NCBI RefSeq assembly: GCF_032884065.1 | Contig: NW_027062665.1 | Location: 2,332,266-2,396,265 of the forward strand | From: Artemia franciscana | Taxonomy: Eukaryota; Arthropoda; Branchiopoda; Anostraca; Artemiidae | Reading direction: 5' to 3' | Length of the DNA stretch: 64,000 nt | Program-made: the position numbers and the translations under genes | The notes under the pieces: model-generated | What the model saw: the letters and a program-made list of their open reading frames with translations, nothing else | Databases searched by the model: none | Told to the model about the DNA's origin: nothing | Shown here: one piece after another, positions 1,090-63,888 of the stretch | How the letters are laid out: every line of letters starts with the position of its first letter | Position numbering within the stretch: position 1 is the first letter of the stretch

Positions 1090-1545
1090 TCCATGCTTTT
1101 CCACATAAGAAGTGGCACCAAAAGTTTTGTTTTTGTGCTATATTACGCTTACACATGGCAGGATAAAAAGCACGTAAAAATGAGCAGCAGCTTTCAAATA
1201 AGCCATTAAACATAACTCTAAGAAGTTCTGGTAGCCCACAAACTCCAGTTTTTGCACTTGAGACATTTAGTACCGTTTTTAGAGCCAGTTGGAGCTTGCA
1301 GATGATGAAATTTATAGTAGGAACATGGATACAAGCATTAGCTTTTATTTAAGCTATTAAAAATCATTCTACGATGTTCTTGTAGCCCACTGACCCCAAC
1401 CCTTGAGAAATGGCGCAAAAAGTGCCATTTTAGCGCCATATGGCACTTGCAGATGCTGGAATTTAAAAAAAGCACGTATATTTGAGAAATATCTTTTCTC
1501 TTAGCTATTATGCATCTTTTGGTGATGTTCAGGTAACCTGCTCAT
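1090..1545. repeat. three-copy tandem repeat, about 151-bp unit
   Basis: The marker GTAGCCCAC recurs at 1231 and 1382, and a diverged form (GGTAACCTGC) at about 1533. Between the markers the units share an ordered set of words: a GGCAC/GGAGC-CTTGCAGATG stretch, AAGCACGT-like words and a TTAGCTATTA-like word. The copies are clearly diverged. No coding frame runs through. Confidence 0.65.
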
Positions 1546-1789
1546 CCTGGTTGAAAAAAAAACGGGAGATACATCAGTGCTAGCCATGCGAAAAAGTGAT
1601 TGTGGACTATGATCTCCCTTTATAATGTTTTTGACTATGCTGATTCTACTGATTCCACGTAATTTTTAAGGGGCTTAAAACTTTTCTGAAATAACCACAA
1701 TTTTTTTTTGCAATAGACTTTTACTTTTCAGATAAACCGAAATAACTATTGCTTTTCCTGAGTTACTGTGAAATGGTAGTTTTTTTTTC

Positions 1790-2395
1790 ACTGGGTAATT
1801 TTTTTCTAAGTGTTTCTTTTAACCTTTGGTTACTATTGGTCTCCATGATATATCTTTTATCCGAATTATTGATTTTTCGTTAAATTTTTCATTTCGCAAA
1901 TTGAGTAATCGATATCGGGACAATTTTAAGTGGACTGCTATGATAAATACATTTTCAACAGATAGAATACATGCTGCTTCTTTAATTTTTGGCTAATCAC
2001 TACTGAGAGTCAGAGTTTTGAAGACATCTTATAGTCAAATGCGAGGAACAAAGAATTTTTTTTTCTTGGTGTTTCTTTTAACTTTTGGTTAATATGGGTT
2101 ACCATGATATATCTTTTATTCAAATAATTGATTATTTCGCTAAATTTTTCATTGCACAAATTAAGTAATTGACATCGGGACGATTTTGAGTGGACTGCTA
2201 CGATAAATACATTTTGAGCAATCGACATCGTGTAATCGACATTTTGAGGAATCGACTTCGGGACAATTTTGAGTGGACTGCTATGGTGAATACAATTTCA
2301 AGTGATAGAATACGTGCTGCTTCCTTAATTTTTGGCTTATCAGGATTGAAAGTAATAATTTTTGAAGAAATTTGATAGTCAAACGCGAGGAAAAA
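1790..2395. repeat. about 260-bp tandem duplication with inner partial copy
   Basis: GTGTTTCTTTTAAC at 1810 recurs at 2069, and TGGACTGCTA at 1931 recurs at 2191, so the main period is about 260 bp. A third partial start (TGGACTG at 2274) adds an inner 83-bp duplication containing ATCGAC words. Short ORFs on both strands here repeat the same peptides because of the duplication and are not gene evidence. Confidence 0.75.
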
Positions 2396-2639
2396 TAGCC
2401 ATGGTATCTTCACACACAACACGATCCAGACGATCCATTTACACAGTACGATCCCCACAATACGATCCAGCAGAGTTATTCCTTTATCATTATAAACATC
2501 AAAGGAAGGGTAAAACCGAGGAAGAAGAAAAGTAGCCTTCACTACCCTATTTTGGAATCTTTGAAGTGAGCAGAGAAGAGGTTTGTTAGTACCACCCCAA
2601 CTTCATAATAAATAAACTTTTAACATCTGGGAGAATAAA
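2396..2639. other. short interval with clustered ACGATCC words
   Basis: Between 2418 and 2471 the word ACGATCC appears four times at irregular spacing. Nothing else is recognised. Confidence 0.4.
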
Positions 2640-3222
2640 TTAGTTATTCCGGCGCAACATTGAAGACTGGCAGAGCAGAAGGGAGTGCTTACGAGTTACA
2701 TGGGGCTTAGAAATGACAAGAAAAAAACTGTCAAGATACACACCAAGAAATTTCATCATAGTAGCATGCAGTATCACATCGTTCCCATAAGTTTGGATGA
2801 TTGGCTCCTGTACGCCTCTCATACGATAAGGGGTCTTGAAGCATTCAACAGCACATTTCCGGCTGTTGGGAGATGGCAACCACCATTTGAAAATCACCAA
2901 GCTTTTACTTTATCAAGAAGACCTTGTTTTACGGCAGTGGCAGATGGCAGGTCCACTGCAGCAATAAAAAGTTATCTTCGTCAGCATAAAGAATAGCGTG
3001 CAAAAGGCAATGAAAACTATCAATAAGATCATTAATATAAATCAAAAACCTAAGTGGTCCAAATGCAAAGCCTTGTGGGACATCTTTCAATGTTGGTAAA
3101 GTAGAGGAAAAAGTACCATTAATTGAAACATACTGGTATCTCCTTGAAAGACAAGACCTAAACCATTCAAGTGGGACTCCATGCTCTCTAAATAAAGATA
3201 CTACCTGGAAACTTAATTTCAA
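2640..3222 (-). pseudogene. non-LTR retrotransposon RT fragment (jockey/CR1-type)
   Basis: Read from 3222 downward, the peptide carries in order G-V-P-L-E-W-F-R-S, then Y-V-S-I-N-G, then DVPQGFAFGPLRFLIYINDL and LYADEDNF. These match the RT palm of jockey/CR1/L2-type non-LTR elements (usual forms GVPQGSVLGPLLFLIYINDL and the YADD or FADD box). After a frameshift near 2910 a second frame gives KFLGVYLD, the block that follows the active site in these RTs. Damage is plain: the catalytic box reads Y-A-D-E-D, G-S-V-L is G-F-A-F, and both ends are truncated. It is a 580-bp fossil. Confidence 0.85.
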
Positions 3223-3920
3223 ATGACTTATTTCTCGGTCTGAATTTTCTTAAAAAGTGTTTCATTAGTTTAAATATTTCACCGATATAAAATGGTTACT
3301 ATTTTAATTTTACAGACAGTTAACAACAGAGACTTAGCTGTAACTGCAACTTTTTTGCTTATCTCTAATCTTGGAAAATAGGCTAGTAGTTAAGTGTAAA
3401 GTCAAAATTAAATTTTCATGGCAACTGGCACAAAACGAAGGGAGGTTTGTATTGAGACATCGATTGGAATATTTGCATTTTTTTATTTTAAATAGTGTTT
3501 TGTTTCTGAAGAACATTGCCCTCTGTCTTCTTTCTGATGTGAGCTAGGAATTCTCCGTTAAATTGAAATATTTGGTTGAAGCACTCACCTTAAAAATATG
3601 AAAATGGAAATGACGATCCCACAATAATTTTTTATTGTTCAGCCCCCTCCTCTCTAGATACTTATTGGAGGGGCTCCCTTTTTTTTTGGTGGATGACTAT
3701 TATTCTCGAGGCATTGATAGAGGAGCACCAATTTGAAGTAACAAACCAACCAAAACGAATTGTAGTTACAAACTGTAAGTAAAGAGCAACCCTTGTTAAA
3801 AGAAACCAAAATCTAAGAAACACTGTTTGGTTACAATATATGCAACAACATAATTCATATAGGTTACAAATTTGAGAAAATTTGTTAAGAGCCTTAATTT
3901 TGAAAAAAACATGAACGAAG
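3223..3920. other. unassigned stretch
   Basis: No recognised gene or repeat. The sequence is ordinary AT-rich background up to the AT microsatellite. Confidence 0.45.

Positions 3921-3922
<2 letters not shown>

Positions 3923-3989
<67 letters not shown>
3923..3989. repeat. (AT)n microsatellite
   Basis: About 33 uninterrupted AT dinucleotides. The minus-strand reading of poly(IY) across it is an artefact of the repeat. Confidence 0.98.
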
Positions 3990-3992
<3 letters not shown>

Positions 3993-4143
3993 TTCAAGAT
4001 CGTACACATGCCATATCTGCTCCAGTAGTGGTTGTTTTGTTTTAGAATATATGATGCATGCGGAATTACACAAGAAATATATTTTTGAAAAGAAAAATTA
4101 GATGATTGTCGTTATGTTTTTAATCGTTTTTTTCTCTACGGCC

Positions 4144-4240
4144 CATGTGACATTAATAAGTAATGTCACACCACTTACTTACCATGTAATGGTAAGTAAT
4201 TAATTACCAATACATGGTAAGTAATTATCATGTGACATTT
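4144..4240. repeat. nested inverted repeat (hairpin)
   Basis: ATGTGACATT at 4145 pairs with TAATGTCACA at 4160 and, with only small mismatches, the same motif closes the structure at about 4228-4239 (CATGTGACATTT). Inside, TTACTTACCATG pairs with CATGGTAAGTAA around an ATGGTAAGTAATTAATTACC core. The whole block can fold on itself in more than one way. It may be a small MITE; no target duplication was recognised. Confidence 0.7.
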
Positions 4241-4944
4241 CCAAAAGATGTTTGAAGCAATTTTATATTACCAAGTGGACAAATTAACAACCTAGATTGT
4301 CAAATGTGACGAGACCAATCCGAGTAGTTAGGGTGAATGGTATTGAAAAGTGTCAAAGGTAATGATGAACGGAAATGAAGAACAAAGAAATATAAAGTGA
4401 GAATACCAGTGTCAGCAATAATTGGCAACAAGCCGAAAACACAAGTGAAAAACAAAGAAACATTTGGTTCGAAGATAAGCGGAATCAAGAATCAAAAACA
4501 AAAGTGAAAATTGCCTAGAGGACAATTGCACATCATTGATCATTTACGCTGAAAAGGAAAGTATTATTAATTAAAGGAGCAGTGACTCCTAAAGCACTGC
4601 AGAACTAGAGTACAGGGCCCCTTCAACAGTCCCTTTATTAAGCTGAAAGGAATGCGTTATTTTACAAGTATTGAAGAAAACCTCGCTAAAGGAATGCACC
4701 ACTTTCAGAACCAGCAAGACCCTAGCCTTTTCTCTTTATTAAGACAAAAAATTGCTATTTTCAGCTATTGCTATTTTATGGCCGAGGGGGTCTTCAAAGC
4801 CCTCAAGACTATCGAGAGGACCCTGGTTTTCCCCCTCTATTATTAAGCTGGAAAGAAACCTATTCATTCTTAGGATTGCTAGTACCATCAAACCTCCCTC
4901 TATGAGTAGTGAAAAGGTTCCCCACGCAGAAAAACAATAATTTT
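4241..4944. other. unassigned stretch with repeated TATTAAGCTG words
   Basis: Around 4630-4860 purine/pyrimidine-biased sequence repeats words such as TTTATTAAG and GGGCCCC. Overlapping ORFs on both strands here are unconvincing. Probably an unclassified old repeat. Confidence 0.4.
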
Positions 4945-5306
4945 TCACCGCTAAAACATGTTCACATGTTTTAAGGATGTTTATTATTTTTTATGTATTG
5001 GGTTGGTCTCTGGGGCTTACCCATGAGGCCTCTAGATGTCTTATGACTCACTTGGTTTTATGTTGTAAATTTAATTGTGTCTCAAAATGGTGCGCGGAGG
5101 ATGGAAATGGTATCGTATGGCACGGGATTCGTTTTTTATTTATTTCTGCCAAGGCTGGTTAAGATAACTATTTATTTTTAATTTTTGTGCATATTTAGTG
5201 TTGCTTGAAGGTAGCTCAATTGCATTCGAGCTATACTCTCAGCCTTGAGTTACCTAATATTTTGTATATATTGGTTATATTAAAAGAACCTTGAACCTTG
5301 AACCTC
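4945..5306 (+). mobile_element. possible 3' end of a non-LTR retrotransposon
   Basis: The stretch ends with AAAAGAACCTTGAACCTTGAACC, a short tandem TTGAACC repeat directly after an AT-rich segment. CR1/L2-type non-LTR elements end in short tandem repeats instead of poly(A), so this looks like a 3' untranslated end. No coding sequence was recognised upstream, so the class is inferred from the tail only. Confidence 0.3.
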
Positions 5307-6934
5307 CTGAGGGCCCCTTATTACTGCCTTGTAGTACGGAAGTGGCCTCATTCCCCCCGCTTTATTATGGAAACCCAAAAGGACCTTGGTCTTTGTATTG
5401 TCGCGTGTAGGTGTTTGCTACCTCATTGAATGTCTTCACCTTTTACTGAGAGCTTCTTGCTCAGAACTTTCCTGAAACGCAAATCAAATTTTAGTTTTTC
5501 ATGAAGTAGGTGTACCTAAAAAATCATCATTTTATCATAATTTAAGAAAGTTTTAAATTTGTTTTCCTAAAAAGAACATATATGGTTAAAATGCATCTTA
5601 GTTTTCGTCCACCATCAAATGGGCCCATACGTAGGAAAAATGCGGTTGTTATATGGGACTGTGGAGGGTAAAGACTAGCAAAAGATTTGTAACCCTTTGC
5701 TCTATGTGATATTTGAACTTTAATAGGAATTAAAGGGGTCTCCTCCTCAACCTTATCAAGTGAGGTATGGCAAAAGTGGAATATTTGACGGAAAAATTTG
5801 AATTGAAAGATATCACAGACAATAAATATTTTCTTTGTCTTTATAAGCTTTTTTTATTCTTTCTATAATATATTATAGTAGAAGAAAAATATTCTTTACT
5901 GCATGGAATCATCACTAGAAATGAATCAATTTAGCTAACATCTCTTAGTTTTAGCGTAAATAATATGTTTTTTTCCCTTGAATTTTCACTCCTTTTTCAC
6001 AGTTAGCTAATGGCAAATAGCGCTTACTTGATCTATGCTCTCCTTCCCTGACTAAACATTGACTAGTTAAATTTGACCTAATCACATTTTATTATGAAAA
6101 TAGTAACCATAACCAGCTCCAGCCGTCTCGCAAATCAAAGATTTATTGTAGAAAAAAATATCTCATCAGTTTGATGAGAAGGATATTTATAAATTGTGAA
6201 CCACTTGTTCAGGTTAAGCGCTAATCAAGGGTTTAATTTAGCAGACAAAATGGATGCCCCCCCCTATGTAATTGTGTAAAACCAGCTATTTTAGTGCAAA
6301 TATTTAACCCTATGTGAAAATGACACGTGCCCACAGCAATTAAGGTTTACCCTGAATAAGGGACAGATGGTTAACATATTGGGAGCTTTAAAATGTGTAA
6401 GAAGTAATGAAAAAAGTGCTTTTAAGCAGACAAGGTTTTTTTTAGTAAGGGATACAAGAAAATTAGATAAATGTATCACTGAGAGAACCATACAATATCA
6501 GGAGGGCATGGGGTCTATTTTTTTAATTACATATAGGGAATTGTGCTAACTCAAACGAGCATACCGTCCCCCATTTTATGGTTGGGGTATCCTTAATATG
6601 CATAAAGGCCTGCTTGCATATAAGCAGAAATCTAATTCTTTTCAAATTTCTAGGTGTGTGTGCATCCATTTAAGAAAATTGACTTGTATGTCCCTGATTT
6701 AATAAAAGACTGATAAAAATGCTCGTTTGATACCCAATTTTATACCCAACAAGAACAAAGGAAAATACCCAGTCCCACTAAAAGAGGAATCTTTTGTTGC
6801 TAGAAAATCAATAGACTCGAGACTGTATAACGTTTCGTCCCTTGTTCCTGGAATTAGCTGAAAAATCCTTTATTTGCCAAAAAAAGTCTCTGTGGGTGAA
6901 GCAAAAAAATATTGGGTTATGATCAATTTGGACC
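5307..6934. other. unassigned AT-rich stretch
   Basis: I see no recognisable coding or RNA gene in this 1.6 kb. Short ORFs near 6291-6549 overlap on opposite strands without any family resemblance. Confidence 0.45.
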
Positions 6935-14030: not shown

Positions 14031-14289
14031 TTATTTTTGGTAGAGTAGCGACGTAAACTGAAATATATTTATCTATGGTATGACTGTGAGAATTGAATTG
14101 GAGCATTTAGTGGCGTCTGGGGTGAAGTGACCATAAAATTTTGATTTGGATAAATTTAGAGACAATGAATGCATCCATTTTACCAAAAACACTTGCCTGG
14201 AGAACAGCCCAGAAGATCAAATTAAAACTTTTGGATTGTTGGGGGGAGTGTGAAAGTGCCAGTGTGCTTTAATTTTTCCAAAAATTAGT
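14031..14289. other. unassigned spacer between R1 pieces
   Basis: No recognised feature. Confidence 0.4.
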
Positions 14290-14790
14290 AAAAAAAAAGT
14301 AATAGTTGCCTTTTTAAGTGACCAAAAATTGGAGGGCAAGAAGGTCTCCTCTACCACCCTTTTTTTTATCAAAATCGTACGATAAAACTATTAGAAAGCC
14401 ACTCAGCAATAAAAATTATTATGCAAATTTTGTTTAAATTATTCTTATGCAGTGAGCCAAAATCAAAACATGCGTTAATTCAAAAACAACCAGAAATAAA
14501 AAATAAAAATAAGTTTTTTAACAGAAAGTAAGGAGCGACATTAAAACTTAAAACGAACTGAAATTATTCCGAATATTAAAGGAGTTATCCCTTCCTTAAT
14601 GCCTCGCTCTTTACGCAAAAGTTTTTTGTTGTTTTAAAAAGTAGAGCTGAAAGAAAGAGTCGAACCTTAGCGTAAAGAGCGGGGTGTTGAGGGGGGACAG
14701 CCCCTTTCATATACAGAATAATTCCTGTTTGTTTCGAGTTTTAATGTTGCTCTTTACATTCAGTTAAAAACTTGTTTTTTTTTATTTAGT
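14290..14790 (+). repeat. R1 tail with complete type-1 foldback
   Basis: The left part (14310-14510) matches the R1 tail flank, with landmarks GTGACCAAAAATTGGAGGGC and AAAACATGCGTTAATTCAAA. The palindrome at 14511-14774 has arms of about 105-110 bp, from TTTTTTAACAGAAAGTAAGG to CTTTACATTCAGTTAAAAA, with a loop of roughly 45 bp near 14622-14670 containing GTTTTAAAAAGTAG. Arms differ at several positions but stay pairable. Confidence 0.85.
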
Positions 14791-15035
14791 TAAGATCAAG
14801 GTTTAGAACGGCTCTTGAACCAAGCTTTTGATTGAACAGAAATTCCTGGATAATATCCTCGAAAAAAGCCTTATTGGAAAATTTTTAAAAGATATCAATC
14901 TGTGATGAATCACAATGGAACAAAAGAATAAATATATATCAGAGGAACCACTCTGCTCCCTTTATTTCTGACGCTTTCAACTCTTTTATTTGCGACTTTA
15001 AGTTTTCTCGCTGTGGTGTGGGAAAGATGTCATTC
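14791..15035. other. unassigned spacer
   Basis: No recognised feature. Confidence 0.4.
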
Positions 15036-32232: not shown

Positions 32233-33240
32233 TTAGCTTTGAGTGTTTGCCAAGAGATACTGCAAATTTGTATAAGGATCCTTGTTTCTCGTGGCAACCC
32301 CTTTCAAGGAGATCATATAGCCTTCTTGGTCAAAACATCTAAATATTCCCTCGTATCTATCAAGAAGGACATATAGTTCTTCAATGTCTTCATTAAAAGA
32401 CACAAGTTTCGGGATCAATGGTCTGATTAGGTTGGTTGGTGACTTCTGAGATATGGCATCATCTCTACCACTATTGAGTGAATCGATTCACTGCTAGTCT
32501 AGACTTTAAGGGGCCACACATTCAGACTGATTTTTGTTTCGAAATGCTCCAGCAGAGCTGACTTGCTTCCTGACTGACGTACAGTCAGTCTGGCTTCTGA
32601 GATATGGCATCATCTCTACCACTATTGAGTGAATCAGCTCCAGCAGAGCTGACTTGCTTCCTGACTGACGTACAGTCAGTCTGGCTTCTGAGATATGGCA
32701 TCATCTCTACCACTATTGAGTGAATCAGCTCCAGCAGAGCTGACTTGCTTCCTGACTGACGTACAACATTTTGATAAACAGTAATAATGTCAAATATAAG
32801 AGGTGCATATGGCAGAGACTCATGGAAAATCATGTTCTTTAGAAGGTGTCTCACCAGCAATGTCAGCAATCGCTAAATCTCCTTTGATAATTTGAAATTC
32901 AACATTGATGAAACAATTTACAGAACTAAAAGTTTGGGTTTTCATTTTCTACTTCTCCAAATCATTTTTCATGATCTCGACTTTCGCAAAAGCAGCTTCG
33001 TATTTGTCTTAGTACCAACCAAGCGCTCTTTTTCCAATTCCAATCAGTTAAGACTTGTGGATGTTGAACAAATCATCATCACTGCATCGAAAAGGACTGA
33101 GCCTGGACTACAGAACATACATCACTTTAACAACAGCTTTGCGCTGCTGCCGGATGAATGCAGGGTGATTTTTGTCGTGACTGGTGTCAAACTCACTTTG
33201 AGGTACAACGCTCAACATGTCACTGTATGTAGCTGAAAGT
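32233..33240 (-). pseudogene. decayed coding region of unknown type
   Basis: Successive minus-strand frames show protein-like pieces: from about 33230 V-V-P-Q-S-E-F-D-T-S-H, then YEAAFAKVEIMKNDLEK near 33000 (coiled-coil-like), then F-Q-I-I-K-G-D-L-A-I-A-D-I-A-G-E-T, then SAGADSLNSGRDDAISQK in the repeated block, and finally LIRPLIPKLVSFNEDIEELY ... L-D-R-Y-E-G-I-F with a stop at 32233. The last part resembles the N-terminal gag region of LTR elements in style (an I-P-K-F-x-G, W/Y-R-F-E pattern), but this is weak. Several stops and a 91-bp (not a multiple of 3) duplication break it. It may instead be an old host gene piece. Confidence 0.35.
32441..32765. repeat. 91-bp tandem repeat, two exact-looking units plus one interrupted unit
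   Basis: GGCTTCTGAGATATGGCATC starts units at 32592 and 32683 (91 bp) and GACTTCTGAGATATGGCATC starts one at 32441. The first unit carries an extra 60 bp after TTGAGTGAATC. Units 2 and 3 appear identical over their full length, so this duplication is recent in contrast to almost everything else in the window. Confidence 0.92.
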
Positions 33241-37030: not shown

Positions 37031-37069
37031 TACAGCCAATTATTATAAGCCAATTCTATTTAAATATTA

Positions 37070-37892
37070 AATAAAAAAACAAGTTTTTTTTAACTGAAAG
37101 TAAGGAGCGACATTAAAATTTAAAACGAACAGAAATTACTCCGTATATGAAAGGGGCTGTTCCCTCCTCAACGCCCCGCTCTTTACGCTAAGGTTTGACT
37201 CTTTCTCTCAACTATACTTTTTAAAACAGTAAAAAACTTTAACGTAAAGAGCGGGACGTTGATGAGGAAGCAGCCCCTTTCATATACGACGTAATTTCTG
37301 TTCGTTTTAAATTTTAACATCGCTCCTTACTTTCAGTTAAAAAGCTTTTTTTTTAATTTCTGAACGTTTTTGAATCAATGCATGTTTTGATTTCGGCTCT
37401 CCGCACAGGAATAATTAAAACGAAATTTTTATATTTTTTTTTTTGGCTAAATGGCTTCTCATAGTCTTGATCGAATGATTTTGAGAAAAAAGGAGTGGGG
37501 GGGGGGGAAGCATAGCTGCCCCCCTATTTTTTGGTTACTTAAAAAGGCAACTAAAACTTTTAATTTTTTACGAATGTTTTTATTAGTAAACGATATACGT
37601 AACTTATAAATTAGCTTACGTAACGAACTTTTGTATTCTCATGTTTTTATTACAATTATGAGGGGGGTCACCCCCTCGTCAGTACCTTGTTCTTTACACT
37701 AAAGCTTAAATTTTGTCCCAATTCATTAAGAATGACCCCTGAATCATAAAAGCCGTAGAATAAATAGTTGAAATTACTAAAAATACTTTAGTGTAAAGGG
37801 CGTAGTATTAGGAGGAGGTGAGCCCCTCATATGTGTAATAATTTCTGTTCGTTTTAAGTTTTAATGCTGCTCCTTACTTCCAGTTGAAATTT
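37070..37892 (-). repeat. R1 copy, tail part (left of the retrotransposon insertion)
   Basis: Carries a complete type-1 foldback (37085-37343), the flank with CATGTTTTGATTTCGGCTCT and TTACGTAACGAACTTTTGTA, and a type-2 foldback (37650-37890) with CCAATTCATTAAGAATGACC in its loop. It ends at TGCTCCTTACTTCCAGTTGA, and the R1 body resumes at 40239 beyond the insertion. Confidence 0.88.
37085..37343. repeat. type-1 foldback, complete
   Basis: Arms from TTTTTTAACTGAAAGTAAGG (left) to CCTTACTTTCAGTTAAAAA (right), about 105 bp each, pairing through CGAACAGAAATTAC/GTAATTTCTGTTCG and CGCTCTTTACG/CGTAAAGAGCG. The loop is about 45 bp with CTTTTTAAAACAGTAAAAAA. Confidence 0.92.
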
Positions 37893-49599: not shown

Positions 49600-52490
49600 T
49601 TTCTTCGTGAAACTTATACATTAACGTTTTCCCCTCGGAAAACTGATTTTGCTTATGGAGCATTATGTGCACTGAGTTTTGTTCGTGGAACTTGTTGCGT
49701 ACTGAGTTTCATTCATGAAACGCAACGCATGCTGGTTTATCTCTTTTTGGACTTGTACATTGATTTTTCTCCTTGTGACACTGATTTTTTTTTCTTGGAG
49801 CTTGTTGCGTGATGATTTTTGTTCCTGGAGCTTGTTTTATGTTGACTTTTTTATTCCTAAATCTTGTATAATAATTTTTCTTCTCGTGAAACTGATTTTG
49901 TTCATAGAACTTGTTGCCTGCTGATTTTTGTTCATGGAACTTCCTGCATTTTGATTTTTCTTTAGACTTATTGCACTATGATTTTTCACGAGGAGAAAAA
50001 TCAATGTACAAGTTTCATGAGGAGAGATATCTACAAGCAACAAATTTCACGAACAAAATTCACTATGCAACAAGTTCCACGAAGAATAATCAGCACGCAA
50101 CAAGTTCCATGAACAAAATCAGTTTAATGAGCAGAAAGTCAATGTGAAAATTTCACAAAGGAAAAAATCAACTTGTAACAAGTTTCGCGAACAAGTATCA
50201 GCATACAACAAGTTCCACCAATGGAGATCAGCACACAGCAAGTTCCTTGAACCAAATCAGTTTCACGAAGAGAAAAATTAACATGCAATAAGTTTCATGA
50301 GCAGAAATATGCACCTAATAAGTTCAATTAACAAGGTCAGGTTCACGAGGAAAAAAACAATATAAAAGTTTCACAAAGGAAAAAAAACTTCTGCAACAAG
50401 TTTTGCGAATAAAAATCAGCAAACAACAAGTTCCACCAAGAAAGATCAGCACACAATAAGTTCCAAGAGCAAAAACAGTTCCACAAAGAGAAAAATCGGT
50501 TACTAGTTTCACGAAGAAAAAAAATCAGCCTACAAAAATTTTCACGAACAAAAACAGTCCGCTACAATTTCCACGAACAAAACAAATTCCATGAAGAAAG
50601 CCAGTCACGAGGAGGTAAACCAATGCGCAAATTTCACTAGGAAAAAAATCAATAAACAGCTTTCACGAAGTAAAGAATCAACCTGCAACAAGTTTCATGA
50701 AAGAAACAGCAGGGAGCAAGTTCCAAGAACAAAAATCAGGAGGCAATAAGTTTAATGAATAAAATCGATTCTACGAGAAGAAAAATTAATATACAAATTT
50801 CATGAATATAAAAATCAACATACAACAAGTTTTACAACAAAAATCAGTATACAACAAGTTCCATGAACAAAAATCAGCACATAACAAGTTCCATAAACAA
50901 AATCAGCTGCTGTTGATAAAAACACATTATTCATAAGGAAAAAAATCAACATACAACAAGTGTCACGAAATAAGAATCAGCATGCAACAAGTTCCACGAA
51001 CAAAAAATAGCACGAAACAAGCTCCATGAACAATGTATTTTCCCTGCGGAGAAAAATTAATGTTCAAGCTTAACGAACAGAAAAATCAATATGTAACAGG
51101 TTTTACGAACTAAAAATCAGCATGCAACAGGTTCCACGAACATAAAACGGCACGCAAAAAGTTCCGTGGACAAAATCAAATTCAGGAGAAGATAATCAAT
51201 GTATAAGTTTCAAGAACAGAAAAAAACATGCAACAAGTTTAACGAACGAAACTCAGCACACAATAAGATCCATAATAAAAGTAAGCTTCACGAGGTTAAA
51301 AATTCAAGTACAAGTTTCACAAAGAGTTAAACAACAATGCAATAATTTACACGAACAAAATTCAGCACGCAACAAGTTCCACGATTAAAAATCAGTGCAC
51401 AACAAGCTCCATTAATCAAACGAGATTAACGAGGGGAAAAATCAATGTCTAAGTTTCATGAAGAGGAAAATCAACATGCAATAAGTTTCATAAGCAAAAA
51501 TAAGCGCACAACATGTTCAATGAGCAAGATCAGTTCCACGAGGAGAAAAATCAATGTACAAGTTTTGCGAGGAGAGAGATCAACAAGAAACAAGTTTCAT
51601 GAACAAAATTCAGTACGCAACAAGTTCCACGAACAAAATCAGTTTATTTAGTGGAAAAATCAATGTAAAAATTTCACGAAGGAAATAATCAACATGTAAC
51701 AGCTTAGAGAACAAAAATCAGTATACAACAAGTTCCATGAACGAAATCAGTTTTACGAAGCGAAAAAACAAACATGCAATAAGTCTATTGAGCAAAAATA
51801 AGCACGCAACAAGCGCAATGATCAGGATCAGTTTCATGAGGAGAAAAATCAATATTAAAGTTTCACGAAGGAAAAAATCAACCTGCAACAAGTTTCGCGA
51901 ACAAAAATCAGCACAAAACAGGTTCCATTAACAAAATCAGTTTCGTAAAGAAAAAAATCAATTTACTAGTTTCACAAAGAGAAAAAATCAACTTGCAAAA
52001 AGTTTCACAAACAAAACTTACTACGCTAAAAGTTCCACTCAAGCTGTTCAATGAACAAAATCAGTTACACGAGGAAGAAAATCAATATACAAGCATCACA
52101 AAAAGAAAAATCAAAATGCAACGAGTTTCAAGAACAAAAATCAGCACACAAGAAGCTCCATGAAGAAACCAGTGTTTCGAGGAGGTAAATCAATATAAAA
52201 ATTTCACTAGGACAAAATTCAGTCTACAACTTTCACGAAGTGAAAAGTCAACATGCAACAAGTTTAATGAACAAAAACAAAACAGCACGGAGTAAGTTCT
52301 ACGAATAAAAACCAGAACACAAAAAGTTTAATGAATAAAATCAATTTCATGAGAAGAATTATTAATAAATAAGTTTCATGAATAGAAAACCAACATGCAA
52401 CAAGTTTCATTAACAAAAATCAGCACACAACAGTTTCCATTAACAAAAATCACCATGCTAAAAGTTACATAAACAAAATTAGTTACTTGT
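49600..52490. repeat. 2.9-kb satellite of 25-30-bp monomers with a strand switch
   Basis: The consensus monomer is close to AACAAGTTCCACGAACAAAA plus ATCAGCACGC, with shorter variants around TTTCACGAGGAGAAAAATCA. Some 100 monomers are present. From about 49600 to 49985 they lie in reverse orientation (CTGATTTTTGTTCATGGAAC); from 49990 on they are forward. The junction is a palindrome, GATTTTTCACGAGGAGAAAAATC in sense. Because 30 is divisible by 3, short ORFs with N-K-F-H-E-Q-N decapeptide-like repeats appear in both orientations, but they break at every 25- or 29-bp monomer. Confidence 0.95.
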
Positions 52491-57915: not shown

Positions 57916-57987
57916 ATTAATTAGCCCTTCAATTAAAAAAAAACTTTTTTTCTTTTAAATTTTTTTCCCGTAAATGGCCTACCGCAA

Positions 57988-59580
57988 TCAAACAGTTCGT
58001 GGTAACGAACTGTAGTAAGGAGTGACCCGGCTCAATAGCAAACGAAACTCTAAAAATCGGAATTTTGATGCTAAAAGATACATCAAAAGAATCGAATTTT
58101 TATGCTGATTCTAAATATATATATTTCATCAAATTTAATCTTTGTCATCAAAAGTTACAAGCCTGAGAAAATTTGCCTTATTTTGGAAAATAGGGGGAAA
58201 CACCCTCTAAAAGTCAAAGAATCTTAACGAAAATCACACCATCGCATTCAGCGTATTAGAGAACCGTATAGAAAAAATTTCAAGCTCCTATCTACAAAAA
58301 TGTGGAATTTCATATTTTTTGCCAGAAGACAGATCACGGGTGCGTGTTTATTCGTTTTGTTTTTTTTCCCAGGGGTCATCGTATCTACCAAGTGGTCCTA
58401 GAATCTCGCAAGAGGGTTCATTCTAACGGAAATGAAAAGTTCTAGTGCCCTTTTTAAGTAACCAAAAAAATTGGAGGGCACCTAAGCCCCCTCCCACGCT
58501 AATTGTTTTCCCAAAGTCAACGGATCAAAATTTTGAGATAGCCATTTTGTTCCGCATAGTCGAAAACCATAAAAACTATGTCTTTGGAATGACTCACTCC
58601 CCCACAGTCCCTGGGGGAGGGTCTGCAAGTTACAAACTTTGTCCGGTGTTTACATACAGTAATGGTTGTTGGAAAGTGTACAAACGTTTTCAGGGGGATT
58701 TTTTTGGTTTGGGGGTGGGGTTGAGGAGAGGGGCTATGTGGGAGGATCTTACCTTGGAGGAATATGTTATGGGGGAAGAGAAATTCAATGAAAAGGGCGC
58801 GGGATTTTCTAGCATTAATATAAAAAAAACAATGAAAAAATAAACATGAAAAAGTTTTTTCAACTGATAGTAAGGAGTAGCATTAAAACTTAAAACGAAC
58901 AGAGATGATTGCGCATATGAGGGATTCTAAAAATACTTTAGCATAAAGATAATACCTTGCTCTTTATGCTAAAGTATTTTTAGTAATTTCAACTATTTAT
59001 TCTGCGGCCTTTCTGATTCAGGGGTCATTCTTGAAGAATTGGGACAAAACTTAAAATTTAGTGTAAAGAGCGAGGTATTAACGAGGGGACAAACCTCCTC
59101 ATATACATAATAAAAAACATAAGAATATAAAAGTTTGTTGCGTAAGTTAATTCTTAAGTTACGTATATTTCTTACTAATAAAAACGTTCGTTAAAAATTA
59201 AAAGTTCTAGTTACCTTTTTAAGTAACCGAAAAATTGGACGGCAACTAGGCCTCCTCTCCCACCGTTTTTCTCAAAATCGTCTGATCAAAACTAAGAGAA
59301 AGTCATTTAGCAAAAAAATTAATACGCAAAGTCCGTTTTAATTACTCATTTGCGGAGAGCCAAAATAAAAACATGCATTAATTCAAAAACGTTCAGAAAT
59401 TAAATAAAAAAAAAACTAGTTTTTAAACTGAAAGTGAGGAGCGACATTAAAACTTAAAACGAACAGAAATTACTCCGTATATGAAATGGGTTGTCCCCTC
59501 CGCAATCCCTCGCTTTTTACGCTAAAGCTTTTAATTGTTTTAAAAAGCAGAATTGTGGCAAAGAGTCAAACTTATGACAG
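57988..59580 (+). repeat. R1 dispersed repeat, near-complete copy A
   Basis: Begins with the perfect hairpin CAGTTCGT-GGTA-ACGAACTG (57993-58012), then TAGTAAGGAGTGACCCGGCT, the 850-bp body, a type-2 foldback module (58850-59110), the tail flank with TTACGTATATTTCTTACTAA and GAGAGCCAAAATAAAAACAT, and one arm plus loop of the type-1 foldback (59410-59575). The plus-strand ORF at 58445-58843 is shared only in part with copy B at 62200-62547 and falls across differing frames, so R1 is probably non-coding. Confidence 0.9.
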
Positions 59581-59657
59581 CTCGGACAGTTCGGACTTAT
59601 GACCTACAGACAGCTCGGTTCAATTATATAAAGGATGAACTGAGCACTTGAACTTGA
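59581..59657. other. short spacer with CAGCTCGG doublet
   Basis: GACAGCTCGGACAGTTCGGA followed by GACCTACAGACAGCTCGG: a small direct repeat right beyond the R1 copy end. Confidence 0.6.
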
Positions 59658-59840
59658 GGAAGAACTGAGGGTCTAGAGGAACAGTTCCATCCAGCATTGC
59701 ACTTCTGTCTGGCATTCAATGGATATTATTCCTACATTATTCCTACAAATCCCTCTGTTGACACTTTCAGAAGAAGGTTTAACAGACATTTAAGAACTCA
59801 AGGTTTTGGAACGAGTCAAAGGAATGTCAAATACCCTTAA
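59658..59840 (+). pseudogene. possible non-LTR RT C-terminal remnant
   Basis: An open frame of 60 codons ends at TAA (59838-59840). It reads LEEQFHPALHFCLAFNGYYS and later VDTFRRRFNRHLRTQGFGTS. The V-x-x-F-R-R-R-F-x-R-H-L pattern near the end resembles the last residues of jockey/CR1-type RT proteins (a V-x-S-F-K-x-x-L-D-x-x-W-like end). There is no upstream RT core, so the assignment is weak; a host exon is the alternative. Confidence 0.28.
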
Positions 59841-61749
59841 GTACCCGGCCCATGAATATAGGAATAAAAGAATATTAAGTAAATTAATCAAACTGACAAA
59901 AAAAACACAATATTTTTGTGTAGTTTAATATCACCAATAAGAGCAATAAAACCTGGAGGATACCGATGCCTTACTAGAAAATGCACCATGGTAATTTAAA
60001 AAACGATATGAAACATTTTGTGTCAAAGGAATATTAATAACACAACCTACTAAGCGAAATACGCTCTTTTGGTTCATCTATTCCGCACTGCTATATTCAA
60101 TGTGAGGCTAAAAGATAACGCAGAATTTTTTTTCCTAAGAATTATAGTATCCTTTTCCAATATGGAGATAAACAAGCAAATCAAATTCTTGCGTACAGAA
60201 CAATCATGTGCACACAGTGCAAGCTTTGACCTCCTTATATTTTTTTTTGACCGGGGGAGCTGAGCGTAGTTTGGGGCAAATCATCTGACACTTCCCGTGT
60301 TTTCTCCTAGATCCCTTTATGTACCCATTTAAAGCTGAGTAGACTTTTGGCTTATCTTAAAAGAAAAACCACTAACCCTCACCCCAAACCAAACAATAGC
60401 CACTACCTAAACTCGAACCAGCGACCTTCGTTTTTTAGTTTGGAACAGGGAAAGCAAGATCATCGATTTTATCGAAAAAATAAAGCATTTTCTCTTTTAA
60501 CTCTTCTGTAAAATGTACAATTTTATTGCTAACTAAATTTTGCTCTTTAAACTAGAACTGTTTAAGTGTTTACTGATGCTAAATTACATTACATTTAGTG
60601 GAAATCAGTTTTAACGACTAATCAAACAAAATATCCGACAAAGCTGTCGGGAACTTATTTGTAATACTTTGTTCGTCCCTTTTTTACAAAATGTAGATAA
60701 ATGATAATAGTTCTAAAAAGATTCTAGCAGCATCAGCACCAGCATCAGAGCTTTTCATTATCTTGCTAGCGGCAACCCATAAAATAGACATTAGTATTTC
60801 AGCCCTATCGCTCCTCAGACAGCTGATGTCAAAAAAGCAACTGTTTTTTTTCTGATTCAAGGCCATCAAATATGCTACGACCAGCTACGTCAGGAGTATG
60901 GAGGTTCCACTTAAAAATTTGTCCATTTTCTCCATTTAGCAGGTCCGCTGTCCCCCGAGAGCCATTATTTATTCATTTATTTATCATTACAAATATTAAC
61001 AACTCTTATGTCCTCTCACATAAACACTAAATAAACATAAGTAAAAAAAATTAATCATTAAATCATCATTTTAACTATGAAGTGATAGATAGCGCTACAA
61101 TCTCGTTTATATAGGTTTTTCGGTTTGACGTTAAAAATAAAAGTTATGAAGTAACACCTTGATAAAGTGTAATATGAAGAAAATTGTGATTTCTTTTCAC
61201 AGTTTTAGCCTTTGAGCATTCTATGATTAGTTTACGAATAATCAATTAGCTTTTCCGGCATTACTCTAGCTAAAAAAATTTCTAGTATATTGATATTTTG
61301 TGCCTTAAATAAATCTATTTTACATGTTTTTTCCCGTTAAAGCAGCGGGAAGAACTATTTGCGCTAATATTTCTGCATAAATTTTGGAACTAATTATTGC
61401 AATAAAAACCCAATGAGATTTAAGGAATTATCCTTAAGGGTCAGTAGAGAATAAGTTGAAAACAATGCTACTAGTTAGGGGCTAATATCAATTTGGAACA
61501 AACTAATTAGTTAGGTACTCTAACAAAGATGTACTGCCTCTATGACTTTCCAGACTATGTTCGTGGATAATTGTTGCCCCTGGTGCTCCTTAAAATACAA
61601 AAAAAAAGAAAAATATTAAAACAAGCTGAAAATACAGATTATTACTAAAAATACAAGTATACAAATGCTTAAGCATAAAAATACAGACTTTTAATTGAAA
61701 AAGTAACAAAATATACATCGAATAGTATATAGCAACATTTTTTGTGTGT
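59841..61749. other. mostly unassigned
   Basis: 60960-60990 has ATTTATTCATTTATTTATC, which on the minus strand looks like an AAAT-type tail. Just beyond it (60840-60955, minus strand) is an open, GC-richer segment reading L-N-G-E-N-G-Q-I-F-K-W-N-L-H-T-P-D-V-A-G. 60395-60430 on the minus strand contains a tRNA B-box-like GGTTCGAGTTT without a foldable tRNA. None of these could be named. Confidence 0.4.
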
Positions 61750-63269
61750 GTAGTAAGGAGCCACCCGGCTCAATAGTAACAAAAACTCTAAAAAATTGAA
61801 TTTTGATATCAATAGCTACATCAAAAGAATTGCATTTTAATGCTGATTTTAAATATATAAGTTTAATCAAGTTTAGTCATACCCATTAAAAGTTACGAGC
61901 CTGAGAAAATTTGCCTTATTTAAGAAAATATGGGGAAACACCCCTTAAAAGTCGTAGAATCTTAACGAAAATGACACCATCAGATTCAGCGTATCAGAGA
62001 ACCCTAATGTAGAAGTTTCAAGCTCCTATCTACAAAAATGTGGAATTTCGTATTTTTTGCCAGAAGACAAATCACGGGTGCGTGTTTATTTGTTTGTTTG
62101 TTTTTTTTTCTTTTTTCTTTTTCCCAGGGGTCATCGTATCGACCAAGTGGTCCTAGAATGTCACAAGAGGGCTCATTCTAACGGAAATGAAAAGTTCTAG
62201 TGCCCTTTTTAAGTGACCAAAAAAATTGGAGGGCATCTAGGCCCCCTCCCACGCTCATTTTTTTCCCAAAGTCAACGAATCAAAATTTTGAGATAGCCAT
62301 TTTGTTCAGCATAGTCGAAAATCATAATAACTATGTCCTTGGAGATGACTTACGCCCCCACAATCCCTGGGGGGGGCTGCAAGTTACAAACTTTGACCAG
62401 TGTTTACATATAGTAATGGTTATTGGGAAGTGTACAGACGTTTTCAGGGGGAATTTATTTTGTTTGGGGATGGGGCTGAGGCGAGGGGGCTATGTTGGAG
62501 GATCTTTGCTTGGAGGAATCTGTCATGGGGGAAGAAAAATTCAATGAAAAGGGCGCAGGATTTTCTAGCATTACTATAAGAAAACAATGAAAAATAAATA
62601 TGAAAACGTCTTTTCAAATGAAAGGAAGGGGTAGCATTGAAACTTAAAACGAACAGAGATTATTACGCAAATGAGGGGTTCTAAAAATACTTTACTATAA
62701 AGAGCGAGGTATTTAGGAGGAGATAAATACCTCACTCTTTATGCTAAAGTATTTTTAGTAATTTAAACTATTTATTCTACGGCCTTTCTGATTCAGGGAT
62801 CATTCTTAAAGAATTGGGACAAAACTTACGATTTAGTGTAAAGAGCGAGGTATTAACGAGGGTACAAACCCCCTCGTATACATAATAAAAATATAAGATT
62901 ATGAAAGTTTGTTACGTAAGTTAATTCTTAAGTTACGTATATTTTTTACTAATAAAAACATTCGTTATCGTCTGATCGAAACTAAGAGAAAGCCATTTAG
63001 CCAAAAAAAAAAAATTAATATACAAATTTCATTTTAATAATTTATGTGAGGAGAGCCAAAACCAAACATGAATTAATTCAAAAACGTTCAGAAATTAAAT
63101 AAAAAAAACCAATTTTTTTAGCTGAAAGCAAGGAGCGACATTAAAACTTAAAACGAACAGAAATTACTCCGTATATGAAATGGGTTGTCCCCTCCGCAAT
63201 CCCTCGCTCTTTACGCTAAAGTTTGACTCATTGCCACAATTCTATTTTTTAAAACAATTAAAAGCTTTT
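61750..63269 (+). repeat. R1 dispersed repeat, near-complete copy B
   Basis: Colinear with copy A at 57988-59580 from GTAGTAAGGAGCCACCCGGC to the end, but lacks the terminal hairpin: (GT)n-like TTTGTGTGTGTAG precedes it. The type-1 loop at 63221-63269 is inverted compared with copy A. The segment corresponding to 59200-59270 in copy A is deleted near 62965. Confidence 0.9.
62681..62758. repeat. 34-bp-arm hairpin inside copy B
   Basis: CTAAAAATACTTTACTATAA...GAGGTATTT (62681-62714) pairs with AAATACCTCACTCTTTATGC...TTTTTAG (62725-62758) around AGGAGGAGAT. Only two or three mismatches. In copy A the inner part of the left arm is eroded. Confidence 0.93.
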
Positions 63270-63406: not shown

Positions 63407-63453
63407 TGGAATATATATATATATTCCACATATATGGAATATATATATATTCC

Positions 63454-63537
<84 letters not shown>

Positions 63538-63545
63538 TATATTAT
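63407..63545. repeat. AT microsatellite led by two TGGAATAT palindromes
   Basis: TGGA-(AT)n-TCCA at 63407-63428, then TATGGA-AT-rich-TCCATA at about 63433-63456, then about 40 TA dinucleotides to 63531 and TATTATATTATATTA. Confidence 0.95.
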
Positions 63546-63888
63546 ATTAAAGATTGTCACATCTAAGCGTTCTTTGGTATTTTAACAAGTTCAACAACTT
63601 TTCTGAAATATAAGCACACTATTTTCCTGATTTCTTAAATAGGAAATTTTGACTTAATTGCTCTTTCAAAGGAAGTTTAAAATTGAGAGAAGTCATAACG
63701 AGGGACTTGTTACCACACAACTTAAACGTCTAAGTATTAAATATACCTTGTAGGTAAAACGCTTGGATTGGTACGAAGAACCCTCTTTGTGAGACAAAAT
63801 TGTATCACCGAAACCGTGTAATTTCTAATGGAACTTAAATCAAGAATTAAGAAAATGATAATGAAAAAAACCCTGAAAATCTACGTAC
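63546..63888. other. unassigned; possibly intron next to the final exon
   Basis: No recognised feature. Confidence 0.4.

Follow-up and report, generated by a model that had tools for sequence, protein, structure and literature searches.

A window of 64,000 nucleotides of Artemia franciscana (RefSeq assembly GCF_032884065.1, contig NW_027062665.1, positions 2,332,266 to 2,396,265 of the forward strand) carries four copies of a non-coding mobile element whose 3' end is a long hairpin. In one of these copies, located at 63.2 kb, the loop of the hairpin is reverse-complemented relative to the body of the element. The question raised by this locus is where, how often and by which route such a loop is turned over. 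An initial annotation of the window had considered the copies at 59.5 and 63.2 kb as siblings and had proposed that one of the four copies was flipped by recombination between the arms of the palindrome. The comparison of copies across the genome reported here gave another history: the 63.2-kb copy inherited its loop from a flipped ancestor, and the orientation of the loop has changed many times in the history of the family. In the following, N state refers to an unflipped loop and F state to a loop reverse-complemented relative to the body. L-numbers are genome loci, of which L001 and L009 are the window itself and were dropped from the counts.

Loop orientation in the window

The inversion between the 59.5- and 63.2-kb loops was recovered in a repeat search, in which 59524-59573 and 63219-63268 formed an inverted repeat of 50 nt, 94% complementary; the edges previously assigned to both loops were within a few bases of 59528-59571 and 63221-63265. 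As also described before, left arms and flanks were in the same orientation, with direct repeats between 59398-59530 and 63092-63224 (90%) and between 58951-59116 and 62726-62891 (93%). The flank motif was found four times in the window, against a chance expectation of 0.03. The agreement of the 14.6- and 37.2-kb loops with that at 59.5 kb was confirmed, since 14448-14665 (forward strand) and 37405-37193 (reverse strand) aligned to the 59.5-kb copy unbroken through the loop; the tally in the window was three copies in one state and one copy inverted. In both the 59.5- and the 63.2-kb copy the sequence past the loop soon leaves the right arm, and because of this loss neither of them is able to flip by arm pairing today.

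Origin of the inverted copy

When body, arm and flipped loop of the 63.2-kb copy were used together as query, all 40 scored matches (the window's own included) ran through the flipped loop, the others with 96–98% identity. The 29 fetched non-window matches to the flipped tail were likewise all flipped. In a tree of 63 copies, based on 700 bp of body, 28 flipped rows, among them the 63.2-kb copy, constituted one clade with a support of 99, and the same 28-row clade obtained supports of 98, 94 and 98 in later trees. The flipped subfamily that includes the 63.2-kb copy is large and homogeneous; its flip is therefore not fresh but took place in an ancestor and was later amplified. The claim that one of four siblings was flipped here finds no support, and the 59.5- and 63.2-kb copies, far from being siblings, belong to different subfamilies.

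Long symmetric palindromes with body on both sides, as found around the loops of L004, could lose one half and then look flipped. Such an illusion of orientation is very improbable as the source of the F state, given that 27 of the 29 query-match loci of the main flipped clade (not L031 and L034) keep the left body together with a right arm that extends into its distal part.

Loop orientation across the genome

The genome searched comprised 1,270,528,402 bases in 6468 contigs, and each search returned 1342–5618 first-look candidates, all unverified. Orientation by the arms alone was rejected, as the palindrome makes arm plus loop match every element on one or the other strand; copies were typed by the body sequence outside the ~125-bp arm. 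The orientation was assigned in 214 copies, of which 58 were flipped. Loci L060, L078, L117, L125 and L157 were untypable, and two further unflipped copies, bystanders within L014 and L017, are outside the 214. A single orientation everywhere, named by the initial annotation as contrary to a flip, was looked for in this genome-wide tally of tails, and both orientations were found.

Queries that include the tail favour their own state. The 27 fetched non-window matches to the unflipped tail were unflipped, except for two extra tail units inside L004, and the flipped tail of L107 (a query favouring the flipped state) retrieved 20 flipped, 18 unflipped and one untypable copy among 39. Loop-free queries count more and, pooled, gave 5 flipped and 108 unflipped copies among 113 typable ones, these being top-scoring matches and not a random sample. 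The body of the 59.5-kb copy contributed two flipped among 37 typable copies (39 other loci), that of the 37.2-kb copy again two among 37 (39 loci), and the body and arm of L139, a locus picked because it is flipped, one among 39 typable copies (39 other loci).

Isolated flips are known from the assembly only, and an assembly or long-read artefact at hairpins might be invoked for them. As a general explanation it is hardly credible, the flipped state being present in 28 clade members on many contigs and in 20 of the 39 L107 matches.

Number of orientation changes

In the tree of 202 copies (54 flipped), parsimony required 22 changes of orientation with body and left arm and 20 with body only; when only branches with a Shimodaira–Hasegawa-like approximate likelihood ratio test (SH-aLRT) value ≥95 were considered, at least 8 and at least 9 changes, respectively, were forced. 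The tree of 164 copies required 21 changes, at least 9 of them forced. The length of the 202-copy tree, 5.83 substitutions per site, corresponds to ~3.8 orientation changes per substitution per site, which is an overestimate, flipped copies having been sought out. A single event, leading to one flipped subfamily, was a near fit to the first 63 copies (3 changes, at least 2 forced) and was rejected after the loop-free and L107 queries. Rows L004_2, L025 and L035 were left out of the 97/100-row tree; in addition, L096, W14 and L002 were left out of the 131/137-row tree, L101, L102, L108, L113 and L132 of the 164/175-row tree, and L146 of the 202/214-row tree. From the tail tree (134/137 rows) only W14, L096 and L101 were left out.

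Two flipped loci outside the large clade were followed individually. Locus L139 is flipped and has a body 98.9% identical to that of the unflipped L122; the loop variant GAGACAGAG was present in L139 and in six unflipped copies (L099, L122, L163, L180, L186 and L190), and in none else of the 214. The other matches to L139 body and arm were unflipped in 38 of 39 cases, and the single flipped one, L214, adjoins the unflipped L210 and L211 in the tree (support 83–91). Neither L139 nor L214 is explained by descent from the large flipped clade, and at least one orientation change is private to a single copy within its group. Both loop orientations between inverted arms, appearing recurrently, are what characterizes hairpin-mediated small inversions, and the present family shows this pattern. 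As both states have been amplified, the orientation of the loop seems to have no bearing on mobility.

An unlikely alternative source of this pattern is that one or few old flips occurred and that whole tails were then spread among subfamilies by recombination or gene conversion. It would accommodate two loci judged by reading, L073, with a tail of other type than its body, and L136, with both arms of other type, as well as the tail tree, in which only two changes are forced; it is at odds with L139, L107 and L076, whose variants in loop and arms are those of the group to which the body belongs, and with the body-only tree and its forced changes.

Identity and ends of the element

Comparison of the window and genome copies delimited a family of mobile elements of ~1.77 kb, non-coding and with a very high copy number, in which both ends are constant: TCAAACAGTTCGTGGTAACGAACTG... 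on the 5' side and ...TTTATTTAA, followed by T, on the 3' side. The 3' end is composed of a ~125-bp arm, an asymmetric loop of 44 nt and the inverted arm, and the outer edge of the palindrome is the 3' terminus of the element. The tail of L010, folded as single-stranded DNA, gave -149 kcal/mol (z -29).

The element is most probably a non-autonomous relative of Helitrons and Helentrons, similar to DINE-1 and to the Helentron-associated non-autonomous elements (HINE), as judged from features of its sequence and from the definition in PMC4067079. It starts with 5' TC and a nearby palindrome (TCAAACAGTTCGTGGTAACGAACTG, 9-bp stem). Helentron-type subterminal inverted repeats have 12–15 bp; here, an inverted match of ~19 nt, seen by eye and without statistics, joins the 5' and 3' subterminal regions, with AACTGTAGTAAGGAGCGAC close to the 5' end and GTCGCTCCTTACTTTCAGTT close to the 3' end. 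A short 3' palindrome, AAAAAAACTAGTTTTTTT, also read by eye, lies in several copies ~8 nt from the end (...ATTTAA, followed by T). Insertion neighbours are mostly A or T at the left and T at the right; in 60 copies, the 5' flanking base at -2 was T in 44, and at -1 it was A in 32 and T in 24. The canonical CTRR 3' end of Helitrons was not found at the 3' ends of the element, which read TTTATTTAA followed by T. One flank is common to 14 of the 60 5' ends found: the same 12 bases, ATTATTTTCTTT, precede them (L005, L006, L008, L040 and relatives). Three longer 5' flanks almost agree over 70 nt, as if this young subfamily had acquired additional DNA upstream, or else a 5' end that is new.

Foldback (FB-like) transposons have long inverted repeats around a loop, a likeness shared by the present element. 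Assignment to these or to terminal inverted repeat (TIR) transposons was rejected: its 5' and 3' ends differ, and the palindrome occurs at the 3' end only.

The body/arm junction and a possible terminal resolution

The junction between body and left arm carries an inverted copy of the terminal sequence of the element, with up to two substitutions in 169 of the 214 typed copies. A palindrome that extends to the terminus and, opposite the 3' end, a sequence resembling a nick site recall the ends of parvoviruses, a likeness at the level of sequence. By analogy, a Rep protein of the element might nick opposite the 3' end at this junction, after which the hairpin would be re-copied and the whole terminal palindrome inverted at some rounds of transposition. 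Adeno-associated virus (AAV) offers a precedent, being nicked opposite the original 3' end and showing flip and flop, according to PMC1131931, and the concerted arms described below would be expected as well. Terminal resolution of this kind is nevertheless decidedly improbable: free flip and flop would give nearly equal states, and the loop-free queries found 108 of 113 copies unflipped; furthermore, arm differences were in place in three comparisons and swapped in one.

Similarity of the arms

The arms differed on average by 2.5% within a copy versus 4.1% between copies (55 of 63 copies, those with both arms); the values were 3.1 versus 4.8% in unflipped and 2.0 versus 3.0% in flipped copies. 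One arm column was A/A in 39 copies and G/G in 16, with no mixture, and another was T/T in 38, A/T in 9, A/A in 6 and C/C in 2. In the flipped clade (27 copies), five derived cells were common to both arms, compared with a mean of 0.6 after shuffling and with none of 2000 shuffles reaching 5; the five cells reduce to three different variants, of which two occur in paired, related copies, and do not represent five events. Arm-to-arm copying is supported in this clade. In L136 the body is of the L099/L122 group, both arms are L127/L128-like and the loop is its own, as if both arms had changed together.

Internal hairpins and nested copies

The body contains an older long-loop hairpin (arms ~20 bp, by reading), which was forward in 128 of the 128 copies where its loop was found; in 9 copies the loop was absent and 77 had not enough upstream sequence. 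The young clade also has a short palindrome inside the body, with loop GGAGGAGA; all 51 of its strict matches were forward. Cases that looked reversed turned out to have the older form, without the duplication, so that this palindrome is a weak control; the long-loop hairpin, in spite of its short arms, is a better one. The short palindrome looks like an inverted duplication of a stretch which older copies carry once. It is likely a scar left by snap-back copying, in agreement with the idea that strands of the element fold back and get copied. Locus L004 (1226-3231) is a long nested palindrome in which the loop has body sequence on either side; it also holds a repeated tail unit and, in opposite orientation, a copy with an internal deletion.

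Mechanism of loop inversion

The route that we consider probable, with a reasonable margin of doubt, is that the near-identical arms pair as a foldback and that strand exchange inverts the loop. The two arms of the 3' hairpin would pair with each other, and the exchange, most likely a template switch while the hairpin is copied, would turn the loop over and would also make the arms alike. One flipped loop became fixed in a subfamily that is young and amplified and that includes the 63.2-kb copy.

Homologous recombination at the chromosomal level, that is, a crossover between the inverted arms, is a possible but clearly less favoured route. The arms are near-identical and inverted, flips recur, and a rare variant located 26 nt from the loop is on one arm in L139 and on the other in L122, the arrangement that an exchange further out would give. 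Elsewhere, however, left/right differences are in place in the flipped copy (L139 versus L176/L177, L214 versus L211, L076 versus L089), and the internal body hairpin was never flipped. Arms of ~125 bp are also short for efficient crossing over. The same data fit template switching, recombination and Rep-type terminal resolution, and these paths are not separated by them. The original proposal of flipping by palindrome arms is supported for the turnover of the loop (20–22 changes on 202 copies, at least 8–9 forced, and L139), and not for recombination as its agent, which is one of several such paths.

Several results weigh against recurrent inversion through foldback of the arms. Smaller samples required fewer changes (3, 5 and 6), the short and weakly resolved tail tree requires 7 and forces only 2, and the trees are quick searches with many weak forks. 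Some flipped copies have no right arm or have odd tails (L073, L120, L138, L140, L144 and L151), and a few labels could reflect tail exchange. All flips observed are differences between copies, none having been seen inside a single individual or at a given locus through time. The case for arm-to-arm copying is weak in the unflipped clade (16 copies), with two shared arm cells, a number reached in 66 of 2000 shuffles. The body hairpin never flips, yet its short and imperfect arms make it a weak control. Finally, the arm-swap comparison that could place breakpoints is thin and mixed. When six neighbours were merged into a consensus, none of the sites was clearly kept or clearly swapped (bothR 4, bothL 1, other 1); against the nearest unflipped neighbour 23 sites were kept, 2 swapped and 16 other, most rows being meaningless because the right arm was lost (L138, L140, L144, L151 and the neighbour L161). 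On re-reading the arms, the L139–L122 comparison was the one swapped, and those of L139 with L176/L177, L214 with L211 and L076 with L089 were in place.

Features of the window

The features of the element in the window are detailed in Table 1. Three other repeats were observed: a perfect 91-bp tandem repeat (2.4 copies, 100%) at 32546-32765; a minisatellite-like stretch at 50411-52478, with units of ~30 nt (...AAAAATCAGCATGCAACAAGTTCCACGAAC...) and longer periods of 109–140 nt; and an AT microsatellite of ~72 repeats at 63411-63547, which adjoins the truncated 63.2-kb copy on the right.

Table 1. Features of the element copies in the window (positions in nucleotides from the first base of the window).
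Feature	Position	Strand	Characteristics
14.6-kb copy: part of body, left arm, N loop (~14617-14665), right arm (14668-14791)	14289..14791	+	
37.2-kb copy: body, left arm, N loop (~37193-37239), right arm (37190-37066)	37066..37889	-	
59.5-kb copy, N state: 5' end, body, left arm, loop; right arm missing	57988..59571	+	5' end TCAAACAGTTCGTGG... at 57988; body common to other copies; unrelated sequence past loop
5'-terminal hairpin	57992..58013	+	DNA fold of 57985-58045: 9-bp stem, z -4.0
Inverted copy of the 3' terminal sequence at the body/arm junction	59393..59408	-	Bottom strand reads TTTATTTAATTTCTGA; TTTATTTAA also at true 3' ends
Left arm of 3' palindrome, 59.5-kb copy	59399..59527	+	127–128-nt matches to right arms 37066-37191 and 14667-14791
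Loop, N state, 59.5-kb copy	59528..59571	+	Edges read from sequence
63.2-kb copy, F state; degraded 5' tip, truncated right arm	61749..63265	+	Member of 28-row flipped clade
Short internal palindrome, appearing as a templated inverted duplication (putative snap-back scar)	62682..62757	+	Older copies carry the stretch once
Left arm of 3' palindrome, 63.2-kb copy	63092..63220	+	90% direct match to 59398-59530
Loop, F state, 63.2-kb copy	63221..63265	-	50-nt inverted repeat, 94%, with 59524-59573

Comparison with known systems and significance

Helitrons account for 8.81% of the assembly of Artemia franciscana, as given in PMC11492255. The present family shares with HINE and DINE-1 elements the 5' TC, a palindrome near the 3' end, the subterminal inverted repeat, the lack of a known coding part, a very high copy number and, perhaps, the A/T-T insertion context. 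It differs in that the 3' palindromes of the mite elements in PMC4067079 have 5–10 bp, whereas here a hairpin with ~125-bp arms holds a 44-nt loop in two orientations. Small inversions of chloroplast DNA, of 4–50 bp and likely facilitated by hairpins, are the closest parallel for the turnover of a short segment between inverted arms (PMC12371153, a recurrent one figuring in its reference list); those concern single plastid loci, whereas here the family is nuclear and dispersed, and the flip was carried into a multi-copy subfamily. The terminal repeat of AAV (PMC1131931) is likewise a palindrome at the terminus, with an inner part that is asymmetric and occurs in both orientations, and it has a comparable nick site opposite the 3' end. 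It belongs to a virus, and in the present element the two states are unequal and the resemblance is one of sequence alone.

Among the titles and abstract openings listed in literature searches, none dealt with loop inversion in a Helitron-like family, which is weak evidence of absence. Hairpin-loop inversion is known from chloroplast DNA; here it is encountered in a nuclear family that is probably Helitron-like. For annotation, the body has to serve as the guide to the orientation of the tail, since in a palindrome an orientation based on the arms is meaningless. The arms are also relevant to the way in which rolling-circle-like elements copy their 3' end. If terminal resolution were true, the family would represent a transposon version of the parvoviral flip and flop, in which the arms are kept identical and the loop is occasionally inverted, and loop orientation would record the history of transposition intermediates. 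A nuclear mobile family of this kind offers very many sites with a built-in body by which the loop is oriented, so that the rate, breakpoints and timing of the inversion could become countable.

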